NCBI GenBank assembly: GCA_958510825.1
Contig: OY294052.1
Span: 6,407,816-6,471,815, forward strand
Direction of reading: 5' to 3'
DNA from: Brachypterus glaber
Taxonomy: Eukaryota; Arthropoda; Insecta; Coleoptera; Kateretidae
DNA: 64,000 nt
The stretch's first letter is position 1. The number at the start of each line of letters is the position of its first letter. Under the pieces are notes generated by a model. The model searched no databases and was not told the DNA's origin. It saw only the letters and a program-made list of their open reading frames with translations. Both the position numbers and the translations under genes were made by a program. Below are positions 15,211 to 58,377 of the stretch, piece after piece.

Positions 15211-15387
15211 ATCATATTAAAATATCAGTTTACATTTAAACAATGGTTTTACGGTTTTACTAAATCTGATTACCATTTCATAATAATATATGTTATTTCA
15301 ATTATTTATATAACTAAATTTCTGCCTTACAATTGTTACAATTGCAAAACATCCACGTTTAAAAATGAATATCAAATATTCATTATT

Positions 15388-15412
15388 ATACTATTCACAG
15401 CGCCTGCGCTAG
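15388..15412. repeat. Imperfect palindrome TATTCACAGCG..CGCTAGAATA
   Basis: The 25-mer occurs here, inverted at 18598-18623, and in variant form at about 51391-51414. It lies at one end of the dispersed repeat into which the ribozyme array inserted, and is probably a terminal structure of that repeat. Confidence 0.6.
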
Positions 15413-15469
15413 AATAGTATTATGGTGTTTATTATTTCATCTATTTTCTAATCATCGTACAGAGTGATA

Positions 15470-15514
15470 TTGGAATACTGACAGTTTCGGGCTGCATGCC
15501 CTCTTCAGTACCAA
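15470..15514 (-). ncRNA. Hammerhead ribozyme 1
   Basis: Minus-strand order: UUGGUA (helix I), CUGAAGA, helix II GGGC-AUGCA-GCCC, GAAA, C-UGUCA-G forming a two-base-pair helix III with loop, then UA and the cleavage position before UUCCAA (helix I). All invariant residues are present (C3, U4, G5, A6, G8, A9, G12, A13, A14, A15.1, U16.1, H17 = A). Helix I has one U-U mismatch. The short helix III matches the Penelope/retrozyme subtype. Predicted cleavage lies between 15476 and 15475. Confidence 0.85.
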
Positions 15515-15805
15515 GAGTCAACTCTGCACGCTGATTAAGAAAACGTTTTAAGACTTTATTCGCAAAAGGAATATAGTCATTAGATTGATGTAGATTTGAG
15601 CGCCATCTATTGCTAGATGTAGACAACTGGTCATACCTCTCCTAGTCTGGAGACTTTGAATGGTAGCAAATTGAAGACTTGTGTGTCTCAAGCACTGAAG
15701 TACCACTAACGAGTGATTAGACGTAGAATTAGTAAGGACAGAAATTTTTAATTTTAAACAAAATTATAAAAATATTAATTTATTATTCCATCGTACAGAG
15801 TAATA

Positions 15806-15850
15806 TTGGAATACTGACAGTTTCGGACTGCATGCCCTCTTCAGTACCAA
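15806..15850 (-). ncRNA. Hammerhead ribozyme 2
   Basis: Exactly 336 bp from copy 1, same core. Helix II reads GGGC..GUCC: the C-to-U change gives a G-U wobble and keeps the pairing. Helix I and the GUA cleavage triplet are as in copy 1. Confidence 0.85.
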
Positions 15851-16160
15851 GAGTCAACTCTGCACGCTGATTAAGAAAACGTTTTAAGACTTTATTCGCA
15901 AAAGGAATATAGTCATTAGATTGATGTAGATTTGAGCGCCATCTATTGCTAGATGTAGACAACTGGTCATACCTCTAATAGTCTGGAGACTTTGAATGGT
16001 AGCAAATTGAAGACTTGTGTGTCTCAAGCACTGAAGTACCACTAACGCGTGATTAGACGTAGAATTAGTAAGGACAGAAATTTTTAATTTTAAACAAAAT
16101 TATAAAAATATTAATTTATTATTCCATCAGTCTATTTTCTAATCATCGTACAGAGTGATA

Positions 16161-16205
16161 TTGGTAGACTGACAGTTTCGGGCTGCTGGCCCTCTTCAGT
16201 ACCAA
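16161..16205 (-). ncRNA. Hammerhead ribozyme 3 (best paired)
   Basis: The core is identical. The helix I 3' strand is UACCAA, giving six perfect pairs with UUGGUA, and the cleavage triplet is GUC, the most efficient one known for this ribozyme class. The helix II loop changes (GGGC-CAGCA-GCCC) while the stem is kept. It lies 355 bp from copy 2 because the leader between them is 19 bp longer. Confidence 0.85.
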
Positions 16206-16290
16206 GAGTCAACTCTGATTGATGGAATAATAAATTAATATTTTTATAATTGTGTTTAAAATTAAAAATTTCTGTCCTTAGTATTATGGT

Positions 16291-16810
16291 AGTTTCGAAT
16301 TTTCCAAAATTTTCAAAAATCGTCCTAGACCAAAAATTCTTGGATACAAATTTGTTTTATAAAAAAATAAGACACTTTTTTTTAAATGTCCATCTGTCTG
16401 TCTGTCTGTCCGTCTGATGTCACGTTTTTTGTGGACACGATAACTCAAGAACAAATAATCCGTTCGATTTGAAAATTTCAGGAAAAATCAAGGTTTATGA
16501 GGGAAAGATCCCTATTGTTTTTAAAAGAAATCCCCCAAAAACAAAAAAGTTATAAGGGTTAAACTTTTTTAAAAAATGAAAGATTTCATATAAAAAAAAT
16601 CAAATTTTTTTCGTTTTTTGCAAAAAAAGTAAAGAATTTTTGATGATCAAAATTAGCGTTACGTAATACGTTCCCTTATTTAAAAAAAGTGTTATTTTTT
16701 TTGATTCGCAAAAAGGAAATAAAAAAAAATAAAAAATGTTTTAGTTTTTTTTTAACAATTTGGGAAAATACAGTATACCATTTACTGTGAATAGTATATA
16801 ATGGAATGCG
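16291..16810 (+). repeat. Dispersed TCCGTCTG-type repeat, copy 2 (target of the array)
   Basis: AGTTTCGAATTTTCCAAAAT, TTCTTGGATACAAATTTG, a (TCTG)n/TCCG tract, GTGGACACGATAACTCAAGA and GATCCCTATTGTTTTTAAAA. Its beginning is continuous with the sequence left of the ribozyme array, so the array sits inside this repeat. GCGTTACGTAATACGTTCCC at 16656-16675 is a stray end of the GGGAACGTT family. Confidence 0.65.
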
Positions 16811-17035: not shown

Positions 17036-18070
17036 GTATAGGGCATGGATCTGACTAAAATTGTTATCTAACTTTGCTGTGACGTTTCGACGATGGATTT
17101 TCGTCGTTTTCGAACAGAGAATTAAAGCCAAAGATTAGTCAATGTCACTAACAGTAAACACTCACATAAAAAAACATTATTCAAACAAATAAATAACAGT
17201 TAAAAAATAAAATTAAGACTGTAGTTTTATATACGCAGCAACCGCAACTAGTAGGTAGGGCTTTGGATCTGACTAAAATTGTTATCTAATTTTGCTGGGA
17301 CGTTTCGACGATGGATTTTCGTCGTTTTCGAACAGAGAATTAAAGCCAAAGATTAGTCAATGTCACTAACAGTAAACACTCACATAAACAAAACATTATT
17401 TAAACAAATAAATAACAGTTAAAAAATAAAATTAAGACTGTAGTTTTATATACGCAGCAACCGCAACTAGTAGGTAGGGCTTTGGATCTGACTAAAATTG
17501 TTATCTAATTTTGCTGGGACGTTTCGACGATGGATTTTCGTTGTTTTCGAACAGAGAATTAAAGCCAAAGATTAGTCAATGTCACTAACAGTAAACACTC
17601 ACATAAACAAAACATTATTTAAACAAATAAATAACAGTTAAAAAATAAAATTAAGACAGTGTACTTTTCTATACGCAGCAACCGCAACTAGTAGGTAGGG
17701 CTTTGGATCTGACTAAAATTGTTAGGAAACGTTCAATTATCACATAACGCAAATTGTACCAAAATTCATACACTTCATACCCTGTTTCTGGCGTTATTAA
17801 AAGCTGTAGAAATTTCATGTTTTGGTTACCCCCTAATGGGGGGTGTGTTAGGAGGGGTAGCCAAAATATAAAATCTCTACAGTCTTTAATAACGCCGGAA
17901 CCGGGGTATGAAGTGTATGAATTTTGGTACAATTTGCGTTACGTGATACTTGAACGTTTCCTTATCTAATTTTGCTGTGACGTTTCGACGATGGATTTTC
18001 GTCTTTTTCGAACCGCAAATTAAAGCCAAAGATTAGTCATTGTCACTAACAGTAAACACTATTTAAACAA
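17036..18070. repeat. Tandem array, about 219-bp unit, interrupted
   Basis: GGATCTGACTAAAATTG begins at 17047, 17265, 17484 and 17705 (spacings 218, 219, 221), with a further partial unit after a MITE insertion (17962 onward). Each unit contains, on the minus strand, a hairpin (GACGA..TCGTC) followed by GAAACGUC, a motif common at Penelope-like 3' ends; the upstream CUGANGA box is not present. No reading frame. A second Penelope-associated or retrozyme-like tandem element is possible. Confidence 0.75.
17725..17961. mobile_element. Harbinger-like MITE, family GGGAACGTT, copy 2
   Basis: GGAAACGTTCAA..TTGAACGTTTCC, 237 bp, with TTA at 17722-17724 and 17962-17964. It interrupts the 219-bp array between AAAATTG and TTATCTAATTTT, so the neighbouring units give the exact empty site and prove the 3-bp duplication. 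Confidence 0.9.
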
Positions 18071-22330: not shown

Positions 22331-23516
22331 TAATAGTTTTGGGGTAAAGTTCAACAAAAAAAAAACCTGTATACTTAATATGTACTATTCTATCTCTAGA
22401 TATTTAAAAAAACGCGCGTTGTTAGCAACAACTATGACATTATAAAGTTTAACAAAAAATAACCTTTTAGAATTTTGTAGAATACTATTCTATCTCTATT
22501 TTTTGTATTTTATCTCTAGACATTTAAAAAAACGCGCGTTGTTAGCAAAAACTATGACGTTATAAAGTTTAACAAAAAATAACATTTTAGAATTTTGTAG
22601 AATACTATTCTATCTCTATTTTTTGTATTTTATCTCTAGACATTTAAAAAAACGCGCGTTGTTAGCAAAAACTATGACGTTATAAAGTTTAACAAAAAAT
22701 AACCTTTTAGAATTTTGTAGAATACTATTCTATCTCTATTTTTTGTATGTTATCTCTAGACATTTAAAAAAACGCGCGTTGTTAGCAAAAACTATGACGT
22801 TATAAAGTTTAACAAAAAATAACATTTTAGAATTTTGTAGGATACTATTCTATCTCTATTTTTTGTATTTTATCTTTAGACATTTAAAAAAACGCGCGTT
22901 GTTAGCAAAAACTATGACATTATAAAGTTTAACAAAAAATAACATTTTAGAATTTTGTAGAATACTATTCTATCTCTATTTTTTGTATTTTATCTCTAGA
23001 CATTTAAAAAAAACGCGCGTTGTTAGCAAAAACTATGACGTTATAAAGTTTAACAAAAAATAACATTTTAGAATTTTGTAGAATACTATTCTATCTCTAT
23101 TTTTTGTATTTTATCTCTAGACATTTAAAAAAACGCGTGTTGTTAGCAAAAACTATGACGTTATAAAGTTTAACAAAAAATAACCTTTTAGAATTTTGTA
23201 GAATACTATTCTATCTCTATTTTTTGTATTTTATCTCTAGACATTTAAAAAAACGCGCGTTGTTAGCAAAAACTATGACGTTATAAAGTTTAACAAAAAA
23301 TAACCTTTTAGAATTTTGTAGAATACTATTCTATCTCTATTTATTGTATTTTATCTCTAGACATTTAAAAAAACGCGCGTTGTTAGCAAAAACTATGACG
23401 TTATAAAGTTTAACAAAAAATAACCTTTTAGAATTTTGTAGAATACTATTCAATCTCTATTTTTTGTATTTTATCTCTAGACATTTAAAAAAATGCGCGT
23501 TGTTAACAAAAACTAT
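22331..23516. repeat. Satellite array, 120-bp unit, about ten copies
   Basis: TATCTCTAGACATTTAAAA recurs at 22390 and then every 120 bp (one interval 121) to 23471. The unit also holds ACGCGCGTTGTTAGCAAAAA, CTATGACGTTATAAAG and GAATACTATTCTATC. Units differ at few positions (CCTT/CATT; one TAACA). A degenerate partial unit precedes. There is no coding or tRNA/ribozyme motif in either strand. Confidence 0.95.
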
Positions 23517-23999
23517 GTTTTTTCTTATCTAACACCTACTTTTCTTTTATTAAATGTTTCCAATAAAAAACAAAAAACAATTATACTGTAAACAGATATT
23601 AACTAACAAATGGAATTTTTTTTTACATAAATAACATTGTTTATGTTAATGGTTACATAATTACATATTATTAGGTTAGGTTACTCATCTACATAATTAT
23701 ATAATCAAGATTTGACGAAGTACCATGACATTTAACGTTTTACCATCTTCGTCGAGTTATTGCTCCCATCCATACAGAACATGCCGGTTACTTGGTGTTT
23801 CCCATGGTAATAAGCCCATTGTCAATATGAAGGCTAATAAATTGACAATATATATCGAGACGTTTAAACCGAATACTGTGTTTGAAATAGGGTAAACTGG
23901 GGTAAATGGAATTTTGGGGCAAGTACAGTCTACTTCAAGTAACGAGACTAAGTTACCTGGATGACTGTTTTGATGTGTGTCTCTCTATGTCTTATTACA
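23517..23999. other. Non-coding gap
   Basis: No element recognised; AT-rich with ordinary complexity. Confidence 0.4.
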
Positions 24000-46524: not shown

Positions 46525-48962
46525 CACTGTAAATGAATTTCGCAGCAAATAAAGTAGGTCATATGTTACCAGCAAAGAAACTTGTAAATTTAAATCAGTA
46601 CTGTAAATTTACTGTTTTCTGTAAAAATGTGAATTTTTACCTGTGATTTCACAGTAATTTAAGCATCGAATTTAATGTGTATTTCAAGCATTATTACTGG
46701 CTGTTGTAATTTACGGGAAAAAGTGCCGGCTTTTTGGACCACATGTATGAATTTTAATGCAAAATTATTGTACCGACAGGAAAAGAGCTGAGATTTTACT
46801 AAACCCAGTAATATTGAGGTTAATAAATATTGTAAATTCACATTCTGAAATTGTAAATTTGCTTTAATTATTACAGTTAAAACTACTGTAAGATTGACGG
46901 ACAAATTTAGAGTGTACAAATGTACTTTAATTTTTGTTAAAAACTCGCAATTTCATGTCCGTCCCTAAATATTAAAGTACTTGACTTAAAAACTATAGTG
47001 TTTTTAACAAAAATTAAAGTACATTTGTATAGGATCATAACTTCCTATCCATTTCTAACTGAATATTTAGTTAGAAATGGATAGGAAGTTATGATCCTAT
47101 ACAAATGTACTTTAATTTTTGTTAAAAACACTACAGTTCTAAAGTCACGTACTTTAATATTTAAGGACGGACATGAAACTGCAAGTTTTTACATGTCCGT
47201 CCCTAAATATTAAAGTACGTGACTTAAAAACTATAGTGTTTTTAACAAAAATTAAAGTACATTTTTATAGGATCATAACTTCCTATCCATTTGTAACTGA
47301 ATATTTAGTTAGAAATGGATAGGAAGTTATGATCCTATACAAATGTACTTTAATTTTTGTTAAAAACACTACAGTTCTAAAGTCACGTACTTTAATATTT
47401 AAGGACGGACATGAAACTGCAAGTTTTTACATGTCCGTCCCTAAATATTAAAGTACGTGACTTAAAAACTATAGTGTTTTTAACAAAAATTAAAGTACAT
47501 TTTTATAGGATCATGACTTCCTATACATTTGTAACTGAATATTTAGTTAGAAATGGATAGGAAGTTATGATCCTATAAAAATGCACTTTAATTTTTGTTA
47601 AAAACACTATATCTCTAAGGTCACGTACTTTAATATTTAAGAACTAAAGAATCCTTAAATATAAATAAAAATACGTGACTTTAGAACTAAAGTATTTTTA
47701 ACAAAACTTAAAGTACATTTGTATAGGATCATAACTTCCTATCCATTTTTAACTGAATATTTAGTTACAAATGAATAGGAAATTATGAACCTATACAAAT
47801 TAACTTTAATTTTTGTTAAAAACTTGCAGTTTCATGTCCGTCCTTAAATATTAAAGTACGTGACTTTAGAACTGTAGTGTTTTTAACAAAAATTAAAGTA
47901 CATTTGTATAGGATCATAACTTCCTATCCATTTTTAACTGAATATTTAGTTACAAATGAATAGGAAATTATGAACCTATACAAATTAACTTTAATTTTTG
48001 TTAAAAACTTGCAGTTTCATGTCCGTCCTTAAATATTAAAGTACGTGACTTTAGAACTATAGTGTTTTTAACAAAAATGAAAGTATATTTGTATAGGATC
48101 AAATCTTCCTATCCATTTGTAACTAAATATTGAGTTACAAATGGATAGGAAATTATGATCCTATACACTGTAAATGCAAATATGGTAATTTTACAGCTAA
48201 AAGTAGGTGCCAGCAAAGAAACTTGTAAATTTAAATCAGTACTGTAAATTCACTGTTATCTGTAAAAATGTGAATGTTTACCTGTGATTTCACAGTAATT
48301 TAAGCAGCGAATTTAATGAGTATTCCAAGCAGTATTACGTGCTCTTGTAATTTTCGGGACTATCTGTAAAAGTGCCGGCTTTTTGGACCACATGCATGAA
48401 TTCTAATGCAAAATTACTGTACCGCACTGTAAATGAAAATATGGTAATTTCACAGCAAATAAAGTATGTTACCAGGAAAGAAAGTGGTAAATTTAAATCA
48501 TGTAAATTCACTGTTATCTGTAAAAATGTGAATTTTTATTTTGGTAATTTTACTGCTATCTTTTGTACAATGTAAGCTATAATTATGGTAATTTCCAACC
48601 AATATTGTAAAAGTGCCGGGTTTTTGGACCACATGCATGAATTTTAATGCAACATTATTGTACCGACAGGAAAAGAGCTGAGATTTTACTAATCCGAGTA
48701 ATATTGAGGTTAATTTAATAAATATTGTAAATTCACATTCTGACATGGTGAATTTGCTTTAATTTGCTTTATTACGGTTAATACTACTGAAAGATTGACG
48801 GACAAATTTAAGGTGCGACAGGAAAAGAGCTGAGGTTTTACTAAACCGAGTAATATTGAGGTTAATTTTAATAAATATTGTAAATTCACATTCTGACATG
48901 GTGAATTTGCTTTAATTATTACAGCAAATACTACTGAAAGATTGACGGACAAATTTAGAGTG
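46525..48962. mobile_element. Composite CACTGTAAATG element with a palindrome array
   Basis: Starts CACTGTAAATG and ends CAAATTTAGAGTG (inverted-like ends). The left module (46525-46919) and right modules (48173-48962) share AGTGCCGGCTTTTTGGACCA, GACAGGAAAAGAGCTGAG and GATTGACGGACAAATTTA; the right side is partly duplicated. Between them 46920-48166 is a tandem array of units that are themselves palindromes. There is no coding; the superfamily is unknown. Confidence 0.7.
46920..48166. repeat. Array of six palindromic cores
   Basis: Cores of about 76 bp, TATAGGATCATAACTTCC..GGAAGTTATGATCCTATA with AACTGAATATTTAGTT at the centre, lie at about 47028, 47265, 47503, 47721, 47905 and 48091. They are linked by AAATGTACTTTAATTTTTG and ATGTCCGTCC-type arms that are also inverted, so each unit of roughly 185-240 bp is nearly one long hairpin. 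The last three cores are more diverged. Confidence 0.9.
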
Positions 48963-53113: not shown

Positions 53114-54213
53114 TATCGTCGGCTAAGAGGTAAATTTACCTATCTCGATATTTTCAAATTTTTCAGGAAGGTAAAAAACGATTTTAAAATTTATGTTGGT
53201 GATTTATACTTGCTATAAATATTTTTTTGGTACCTTAGAGCACTTAATTCGTTAATGTATTTAAATAATTTCATTCTTAACTATTTTATTTTAAATTCAA
53301 CAAAAATTGGTACAGGTACTTGACATTCTAAAAATGACACTTATTTTAGAGGTAAATTTACCTAAACCTAAGGATATACATAAGGGGATATGGAATCTAG
53401 TTTAAAATTAAGATATTTATAAAGATTTTTGTATGTCTTATTTTATTGTGTACTTGTTTTTTTTTATATTTCCAGGCACTTTTGTATTATATCTATTATA
53501 TTTATTTGATCAATTTCTGTATGGAACTATCACATTTTAATTGAAAAGCAGGTTAAAAAGTTTCCCTATTATATTAATGCCTCATGTCAATGATGGGAAA
53601 TGTCATCTAAAAGTCTAGCTAAAACACTTGAGTGCTTTACTTACAATTTTATGATCAGTTTAGGTAATTTTACCCCTAAAATGTTTAGTTTTCATTCTTT
53701 TTATCGGTAAGTATTGATACTTGAAATTCTAAAAATGACACACATTTTAGAGATAAATTTACTTAAACCTAAGGCCATACATAAGGAATATGCAATCTGG
53801 TTTAAAATTAAGATATTTGTAAAGATTTTTGTATATCTTATTTTATTGTGTACTTGTTTTTTTATATTTCCAGGCACTTTTGTATTATATCTATTATATT
53901 TATTAGATCAATTTCTGTATGGAACTATAATATTTTAATTGAAAAGTTCGTTGAAAAGTTTTCCTTTTATATTACTGCCTCATGTCAATGATGGGAAATG
54001 TTATCTAAAAGCCTAGCTAAAACACTTGAGTGCTTTACTTACAATTTTATGAACAGTTTAGGTAATTTTACCCCTAAAATGTTTAGTTTTCTTTTTATCG
54101 GTAAGTTAATTTTAAACAGAAACATAGAGTAAGGAATTTTGTATCCAATTCTGTAAAAATACAGATTAAAAAAAAATAGCTTTAGGTTAATTTACCTCTT
54201 AGCCGACGATATG
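53114..54213. mobile_element. 1.1-kb TIR element with internal tandem duplication
   Basis: CATATCGTCGGCTAAGAGGT ... ACCTCTTAGCCGACGATATG are about 30-bp inverted ends. Inside, a block of about 396 bp (TTGACATTCTAAAAATGACAC ... TTTTTATCGGTAAG in outline) is repeated at 53318 and 53715 with few differences. The palindrome GGTAAATTTACC occurs at the left end and in each unit. Non-coding; TSD not evident. Confidence 0.8.
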
Positions 54214-56969: not shown

Positions 56970-58377
56970 GTACCTAATCTAAATCCCACTTTTGCGTATA
57001 GTTTATCGCACCACTATCTTATATAATTGGTAAGGTTTGTCCGATCTTAAAAAAGGGAAATCCTGCAGTGATTAGTAACTATCGCCCTATTACAATACTT
57101 TCCAATTTCTCCAAAGTGTTTGAAATGATTATCTACAACTACATATACAAGTCTGTGAAGAACCTAATTTCTATAAACCAACACGGCTTTATGACAAAAC
57201 GGTCTACTGTCACTAATTTAACTGAATTTTCTAATTTTGTTGCTCACACTGTTGATAACAAGGGTCAAGCCGATGTAATCTATACTGATTTTATGAAGGC
57301 GTTCGACCGAATCGATCATTATATTATTATTAAAAAACTTAAACAGAGATATGGTTTTAGTAGCAGACTAGTTAAACTTTTTTTGTCATATTTGTTAGAT
57401 AGATATCTTTACGTCTTTTATAATGGATTTGGTTCTGATCTATTTCTAGCAATGTCAGGGGTACCTCAAGGTTCTAACCTTGGACCTTTGCTACTTTTAT
57501 TATTCATAGATGATCTGAGTGAGTTAATTGAATGCCTGAATTTATTTTTTGCTGACGATTTGAAACTATTCATGCAAATAATTTGCATCAATGACTGCAG
57601 AGGGTCTTGGATGCACTGCAACAATGGTGCGAATATAACTGTCTCAATTTAAATGTATCTAAATGTAAAATCATCTCCTTCACGCGTAAAAAAAACCCAA
57701 TACTTTATAATTACTCAATAAGTTCTTTCTCCTTGGAGAGAGTATATTCCATTAAAGATTTGGGTGTCACATTTTCTAGTGATTTTTTATTCAGAGAACA
57801 TTTAGATAGTATTGTATCAGCCTCATTAAAAATGTATGGTTTTATAATAAGAAATTGTAGTAAATTTACCAGTGTACTTGCTTTAAAGACCCTTTACAAC
57901 TCTTTTGTTCGCTCTAGACTGGAATATTGTTGTACCATTTGGAATCCGTTTTATGAAGTTCACAGACAACAGGTAGAGAAAGTGCAAAAAAAGTTTCTTA
58001 AGTGTTTATATTTTAAAGTATTTGGTATATATCCAGCCAGAGGTTATGATTATGACGTCCTACTGTCTCAATTTGAGTATCAATCCCTAGAACTTCGCAG
58101 AACAATAACCAGTATTAAAATGCTATGTTACGTATTGAATGGTAGAATGGACTCACCATTTATTTTATCAAAGCTAAATTTTTGCGTTCCAGCTAATTGT
58201 ACAAGAACTTCTACCACTTTTTATAATCAAGTTGCCAGAACGAATACTCTACGCACTGAACCAATTTTCAATATGATGTTTTGTTATAATAGATATTGTA
58301 AGAGTTGCGATATCCACTTTGATTCAGTGAGTAGAATAATTAATTGTATAGTTCTAGAGTATTGGCCAAAATGTTGA
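56970..58377 (+). pseudogene. Non-LTR retrotransposon reverse transcriptase, frameshifted
   Basis: Frame one (from about 57027) reads GKVCPILKKG then NYRPITILSNFSKVFE, QHGF (motif 2a region), YTDFMKAFDRIDH (motif A), SGVPQGSNLGPLLL (motif B) and FFADDLKLF (catalytic motif C, FADD). A one-base shift near 57600 moves the continuation to LDALQQWCEYNCLNLNVSKC, then IKDLGVTFSSDFLFREHLDS and LEYCCTIWNPFYEVHRQQVE, ending at TGA 58377. Upstream, PLSYI joins directly to GKV, suggesting an internal deletion, and FAYSLS is in another frame. FADD and the downstream tail suit a Jockey/CR1-like LINE. The endonuclease and ORF1 are missing (5' truncation). A second-frame start at 57607 is an artefact of the shift. 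Confidence 0.85.

Follow-up and report, generated by a model that had tools for sequence, protein, structure and literature searches.

The systems closest to the locus described here are the non-LTR retrozymes of metazoans and the Penelope-like elements (PLEs). In the sections of PMC7229834 available to us, circular retrozyme RNA is demonstrated in other species and PLEs are called a strong candidate for retrozyme mobilisation; the available part of PMC7761336 likewise puts PLEs forward as possible movers of retrozymes in animals. In the available parts of both papers, the argument is that type I hammerheads, tandem copies and co-occurrence are common to the two kinds of element. The action of the PLE protein itself is known from Anolis, where the purified protein cuts and extends both target strands (PMC11167929). 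There are two adjacent internal starts, mostly 111–118 nt into the ORF, and as the ribozyme cut is at +26, they lie ∼85–92 nt beyond it; what separates the two start sites corresponds to the genomic "tail" (PMC11167929). A PLE insertion that includes an inverted pLTR is reported in the available part of PMC3846280, where a tail of 31 bp may be present at one of the inverted pLTRs; nothing on tails was found in that of PMC12910113. In the open-licence literature, we found no published report of PLE-type ends on retrozymes.

The hammerhead array and its insertion

The window is the whole stretch of Brachypterus glaber DNA that was analysed, 64,000 nucleotides long. It had been predicted to carry three minus-strand hammerheads with a complete core. 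A strict descriptor (the core, at least 5/6 pairs in helix I, at least 3 bp in helix II and an A15.1–U16.1 pair) recovers exactly these three motifs in the 64 kb, and none in a control set of 150 first-order Markov sequences, each 64 kb long. The bare core pattern is moderately rare, with 25 overlapping matches in the window and 2 of 100 shuffles reaching 25. The array and its surroundings comprise the following features; the duplication was re-found in L048, the window's own region among the fetched loci (L048 coordinate + 8184 = window position).

15415..15426, no strand: left target-site duplication, TAGTATTATGGT, 12-bp direct repeat
15427..16278, no strand: whole insertion, 852 bp, two head-to-head arms (repeat and locus alignments)
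15427..16217, minus: long arm, outward 3' end at ∼15427, which is start site B (end mapping)
15470..15514, minus: hammerhead motif 1, predicted cut 15476/15475, GUA, helix I with one mismatch
15476..15811, minus: 336-nt unit, cut to cut (repeat analysis)
15806..15850, minus: hammerhead motif 2, predicted cut 15812/15811, GUA, G-U pair in helix II
15812..16166, minus: 355-nt unit of the full-length type, cut to cut (repeat analysis)
16161..16205, minus: hammerhead motif 3, predicted cut 16167/16166, GUC, perfect helix I
16218..16278, plus: short inverted arm, outward 3' end at ∼16278, which is start site A; tail-bearing, CTGTCCT (inverted repeats and end mapping)
16279..16290, no strand: right target-site duplication, TAGTATTATGGT, 12-bp direct repeat

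In the window, the pattern search places the starts of the CUGAAGA boxes at 15508, 15844 and 16199 of the minus strand, and the core order on this strand is CUGAAGA-GGGC-loop-GCCC-GAAAC-UGUCA-GUH with GUCC for GCCC in copy 2; that is, helix II is GGGC/GCCC in copies 1 and 3 and GGGC/GUCC in copy 2. Both helix I pairings that had been proposed are present: UUGGUA/UACCAA in copy 3, and UUGGUA/UUCCAA, which leaves one U-U mismatch, in copies 1 and 2. The cleavage triplet is GUA in copies 1 and 2 and GUC in copy 3. Helix III (ACU-GUC-AGU) has at most 3 bp, as short as had been claimed. The repeat analysis reproduced the expected spacings of 336 and 355, and the two cuts named in the original prediction, 15476/15475 and 16167/16166, coincide with cleavage positions predicted here. 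TRF describes the array as 336 x 2.0 with 98% matches. The units are non-coding, as no stop-to-stop ORF of at least 110 aa overlaps the element; in particular, the element contains no ORF with reverse transcriptase and GIY-YIG of the kind sought for an autonomous PLE. No LTR arrangement was seen in it. All three motifs sit inside the long arm of the head-to-head insertion. The original prediction overlooked that the array is one arm of a two-armed insertion.

The window contains further tandem arrays without a descriptor hammerhead, at 17039–17724 (period 219), 22386–23517 (120), 46954–48167 (238/185) and 53317–54106 (398). A reverse transcriptase stretch at 57002–58377, with two overlapping open frames and RVT_1 in the first, is probably a broken LINE copy.

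The hammerhead model of Rfam (RF00163, Hammerhead_1) has no match at the gathering threshold in the window, and no Rfam hammerhead is reported for 15300–16400 even at E≤10. The original prediction had named the lack of a match to this model as one possible refutation, and taken literally the miss is just that. We read it instead as a sign that a longer helix III is required by the model, its miss on the array being probably due to insensitivity of the covariance model to a helix III of 3 bp. Rfam, silent on the window motifs at this permissive cutoff, was therefore set aside as an arbiter of hammerhead identity. Over the 648-Mb genome, RF00163 gave one match, of 45.8 bits, elsewhere (73 scored of 69482 first-look candidates). 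This is a canonical hammerhead at L049:1501-1547 (G000:C10:30938340-30938386), outside the window's family, and short repeats of the ggcctagcgtacaaatgtgctaagtaccg type adjoin it. In another part of the same assembly, G000:C223 carries a mitochondrial-type COX1 (TGA read through) every ∼21.9 kb, which probably reflects a mitochondrial genome of rather large size that was assembled as a concatemer.

The predicted minimum-energy fold of copy 3 is not a hammerhead (−22.6 vs −12.8 kcal/mol), because CUGA pairs with UCAG; copies 1 and 2 behave similarly. The Rfam-positive hammerhead of the same genome is, by eye, not folded as a hammerhead in the prediction either, and as this control misfolds too, minimum-energy folding was dropped as an argument on activity in either direction. 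The mismatch rate in the window's family is 0.020 in the ribozyme core and 0.031 in the rest, and the 33-nt ribozyme falls at the 56th percentile of the windows compared; this is not significant within so young a family, and conservation was not retained as a sign of selection. Judging from their sequence, the window motifs may cleave themselves in the cell.

Retrozyme and Penelope-like ends across the genome

The core pattern of the window's family (family 1) has 4184 exact matches in the genome, and the reversed-pattern control has none. We analyzed 40 fetched regions, comprised of 39 other arrays and the window's own. As these loci were chosen for scoring best against the window, the sample leans to young, complete copies. 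The arrays contain from about one unit or less up to eight units of ∼354 nt, and the median identity is 97.6% (58 long units). The ribozyme core is intact in 109 of 132 segments, and 105 of these also have at least 5/6 pairs in helix I. One fragment of this family, without an A or B end, lies at L065:1183-1417, 93 bp from a family 2 insertion (see below).

The outward ends of family 1 copies fall at two sites ∼43 nt apart, B at ∼52 nt and A at ∼95 nt past the cut. There were 42 element rows, of which 28 had both ends callable and 12 fewer than two, the remaining two being L009, which is just under the A-end threshold although its duplication puts that end at A, and L040, whose end is lost beyond the fetched stretch and which was excluded from the count. 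With fixed thresholds, all 28 two-ended copies have one A end and one B end. No outward (3') end of a family 1 copy was mapped to the cleavage site.

Exact duplications of at least 11 nt (11–17 nt) flank 19 of 29 two-ended family 1 copies (the 28 classified plus L009), compared to 59 of 1562 mismatched flank pairs; neither L040 nor the first L020 cluster entered this test. Among copies with fewer than two ends, such a repeat was found in 2 of 11, and the one in L022 is inside the element. Ten of the 29 have no exact duplication of this length. One of them, L018, has a 12-nt duplication once its boundary is reset, having been missed because the boundary was set wide; boundaries in AT-rich DNA are uncertain by several bases. 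Twenty copies whose duplication is clear, L018 included, were picked by hand. On the A side, the base outside the duplication is a C or a T in 18 of them and is preceded by A in 15; the B-side flanking base is mixed and follows no clear rule, so that the AAY preference is confined to the A side. Poly(A) is absent from the ends printed for 20 family 1 copies. The identification of the array as a retrozyme is thus upheld by its type I hammerheads, ∼350-nt non-coding tandem units, dispersal and target-site duplications.

A second, retrozyme-like family (family 2) was first met in L050 (83-786) beside a family 1 copy, and is also present in L051–L070. Its unit is 436 nt long, helix III is a single pair with a UCGA loop, and the core has 2102 exact matches in the genome. 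It is younger than family 1, with a median identity of 99.3% (13 units). All 17 two-ended copies, from 22 loci, have A + B ends, A at nt 113–120 and B at nt 68–85, with a B-to-A distance of ∼45 nt. The 17 include L052 and L056, both split by intervening DNA, whose parts were joined into one copy by hand; L054, L060, L064 and L070 are single-ended, and L028 is incomplete. A repeat of at least 11 nt is present at the ends of 13 of the 15 uninterrupted copies, the mismatched-flank control being that of family 1 only. On sequence grounds, the two families do not seem clearly related: their local similarity is 20, a value reached by 18 of 300 shuffles, and the BLAST matches are weak, both around B (E 0.006, common GGAATARTAA) and around the ribozyme (E 0.045).

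Taken over both families, A + B in 45 of 45 two-ended copies departs from an even mix of ends with p ∼6e-14. Neighbours on opposite strands within 1 kb are arranged head-to-head in 17 of 17 pairs in family 1 and 27 of 27 in family 2, among the first 100 listed places per family, all on contig C1; at 1.5 kb, the same places of family 2 give 28 head-to-head pairs and one tail-to-tail pair. The inner (5'-ward) ends behave differently in the two families. In family 1, 41 of 76 fall in the ribozyme zone (15.7 expected, with the zone chosen after looking) and 7 of 76 are no more than 5 nt away from the cut (2.1 expected, noticed post hoc), and these ends might reflect structure, or run-off at the cleaved 5' end. 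The respective numbers in family 2 are 5 of 39 (6.4 expected) and 0 of 39, and template stops at the ribozyme were for this reason ruled out as a general feature.

The same genome contains an abundant PLE. In L050, there is a 436-aa open stretch with a reverse transcriptase domain (RVT_1, Pfam). RVT_1 is the only Pfam match of this fragment, and none to GIY-YIG was found; from its appearance we take the C-terminus to be GIY-YIG-like. Its relatives, as judged from the best 120 of 1506, include many insect proteins and some from Anolis and lamprey, and carry RVT_1, in most cases PF26215 and in some GIY-YIG (PF01541). A search of PDB yielded nothing of use. Searching the genome for it yielded 5631 first-look candidates, 96 of which were scored. 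Apart from the fragment itself, the scored copies are 97–98% identical to it, which indicates a young element, and have open frames of up to 971 aa, with 821 aa recurring. The ribozyme of the PLE is without its own helix III, and one additional U precedes helix II.

Twelve PLE loci were examined, and four of the five two-ended copies have A + B ends. These four (L076, L078, L079 and L080) each have one A end and one B end, at 87–91 nt and 54–55 nt past the cut, respectively, and a duplication of 13–15 bp. The fifth, L071, is a tandem copy. Both of its ends are of the A type, its boundaries are not directly flanked by a duplication, and it is the sole exception to the A + B rule among scored copies. 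Five of the 12 loci have a single outward end, and in L073 and L074 the left arm extends beyond the fetched stretch. Homology of the retrozymes to the PLE was rejected, as comparison of this one PLE family with either retrozyme gave only weak AT-rich matches. The lack of clear homology, which gives no clue to how a PLE would recognize the retrozymes, counts against the PLE as their mover. Among the 73 loci compared, no insertion combines one retrozyme arm with one PLE arm.

Machinery and template

Together, these data suggest that the window insertion is a copy of a type I (non-LTR) retrozyme that was in all likelihood inserted by a PLE reverse transcriptase-endonuclease. This is the most likely mode of movement because the retrozyme and PLE ends are alike and because two internal starts, with both strands extended, are published for PLEs. 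The link to Penelope that had been drawn in the original prediction is therefore strengthened by the end anatomy common to the two. The PLE protein, probably acting as a dimer, would cut both target strands ∼12–15 bp apart, and each target 3' end would prime reverse transcription on retrozyme RNA, one at A and the other at B. Each cDNA would extend back over part of one unit or over several units; the two cDNAs would then be joined head-to-head, and the stagger would turn into the target-site duplication. The exclusive A + B pairing points to a coupling of the two starts, for example by an asymmetric dimer on one RNA.

Other machineries could produce some of the same features. Twin priming by a LINE-type retrotransposon on a nicked target would give inverted arms and duplications of 7–20 bp, 5' inversions being known for LINEs too; the 11–17 nt duplications of family 1 agree with this, and the window has a LINE-like reverse transcriptase fragment (57002–57652, RVT_1). 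However, twin priming inverts a minority of copies and is not known to give two fixed internal end sites, while here there are two such sites and one of each is used per insertion. Given also that 20 printed end pairs are without poly(A) and that the PLE of the same genome has a matching anatomy, a LINE seems an unlikely agent. Similarly improbable is that the arrays are solo pseudo-LTR remnants of a PLE and not an independent element. The minimal ribozyme type, the end anatomy and the genome itself are common to both, but comparison with one PLE gave no clear homology, the 354-nt unit has no ORF of 110 aa, and a second, not clearly related family behaves in the same way. As for an ordinary satellite array that carries a relic ribozyme and spreads via recombination, tandem 354-bp units, up to eight in the fetched loci, are what it would look like. 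It is contradicted by the dispersal and the duplications: the copies are short dispersed insertions with common end sites, most two-ended ones are flanked by duplications, and the ribozyme cores are intact in most segments. We regard this explanation as highly improbable.

The form of the template is a separate matter. The arrays cross the cut sites and have no outward ends there, so the RNA copied by the putative PLE machinery seems to have been uncut at the ribozyme, being either a circle or an uncleaved multimer. In the classic retrozyme cycle, cleavage and ligation give monomeric RNA circles, and rolling reverse transcription turns them into tandem units; this model is published (available part of PMC7229834) and is compatible with PLE machinery. 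It agrees with the outward ends never being at the cut site and with the near-uniform arrays of L040 (98.9–100%), L031 (99.4–100%) and L042 (98.9–99.4%), and, on average, unit identity is higher within arrays (98.1%, 83 pairs) than between them (96.4%, 496 pairs). On the other hand, an uncleaved multimer accounts for the same data, and single insertions of mixed unit types are found in the window (336 + 354), L033, L036, L009 and L041. A single monomeric circle cannot supply the window array, as two units of the 336 type and one of the 354 type share the insertion. Mixed-unit insertions need a multimeric RNA or switching between RNAs. We therefore consider monomeric circles a possible template and lean somewhat against them. 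The original prediction of mobility by circular RNA is thus upheld for mobility, given the duplications and the thousands of genomic matches; for the window copy, the mixed units speak against a monomeric circle. In at least some insertions, the template was something other than a monomeric circle, and this matters for the question of what the ribozyme does. In L041 (1543-4358), an eight-unit array, the later units have, in turn, an intact core and one in which GAAA has become AAAA, making a 708-bp higher-order repeat; the core is broken in units 3, 5 and 7 of the seven printed.

The end anatomy links a young PLE to two retrozyme families that are not clearly related to each other, and can be scored in any assembly. 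Moreover, that each insertion has one end at A and one at B constrains the action of the Penelope protein, suggesting that both strands are primed together, through one RNA or a dimer. A more specific version is that one PLE dimer primes both strands at A and B of one RNA, which would give each two-ended insertion exactly one end of either kind, and that unrelated retrozymes are its RNA parasites by virtue of a ribozyme-B-A order on multimeric RNA; for this version, we see the balance as even. If it holds, the A + B rule could serve generally to assign orphan animal retrozymes to PLEs. Alu, which lives on L1, would be a parallel for retrozymes that parasitise the PLE machinery.

Comparison with known systems

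Among described elements, plant LTR retrozymes resemble the window family in being non-autonomous, non-coding and hammerhead-bearing (available part of PMC4918200). They differ in having type III ribozymes, LTRs and 4-bp duplications (PMC7229834 and PMC7761336, as far as available), none of which was seen here. The pDo500 repeat of Dolichopoda, as described in the available part of PMC2837043, is also an insect repeat with a hammerhead, but it is presented there as satellite DNA, and the likeness noted here is one of description.

PLEs with pseudo-LTRs and minimal hammerheads (PMC11167929, and PMC3846280 in its available part) share with the retrozyme similar start-cut distances, head-to-head arms, a tail at one end, duplications of ∼8–15 bp and extension of both target strands. 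The retrozyme differs from them in being non-coding, and it is not clearly homologous to the one PLE with which it was compared.

The closest match is to the metazoan non-LTR retrozymes. According to the available part of PMC7229834, these have type I hammerheads and non-coding tandem units of ∼300 nt with low GC, their duplications, when present, exceed 4 bp, and their hosts include insects. The window element fits this description, with type I cores in 3 of 3 motifs, non-coding units of 336–355 nt, inside the ∼150–450 nt range of the class, and a 12-bp duplication. In comparison with the metazoan retrozymes as covered in that part of the paper, the insertions described here are resolved into head-to-head arms with two fixed start sites, one end at A and the other at B.
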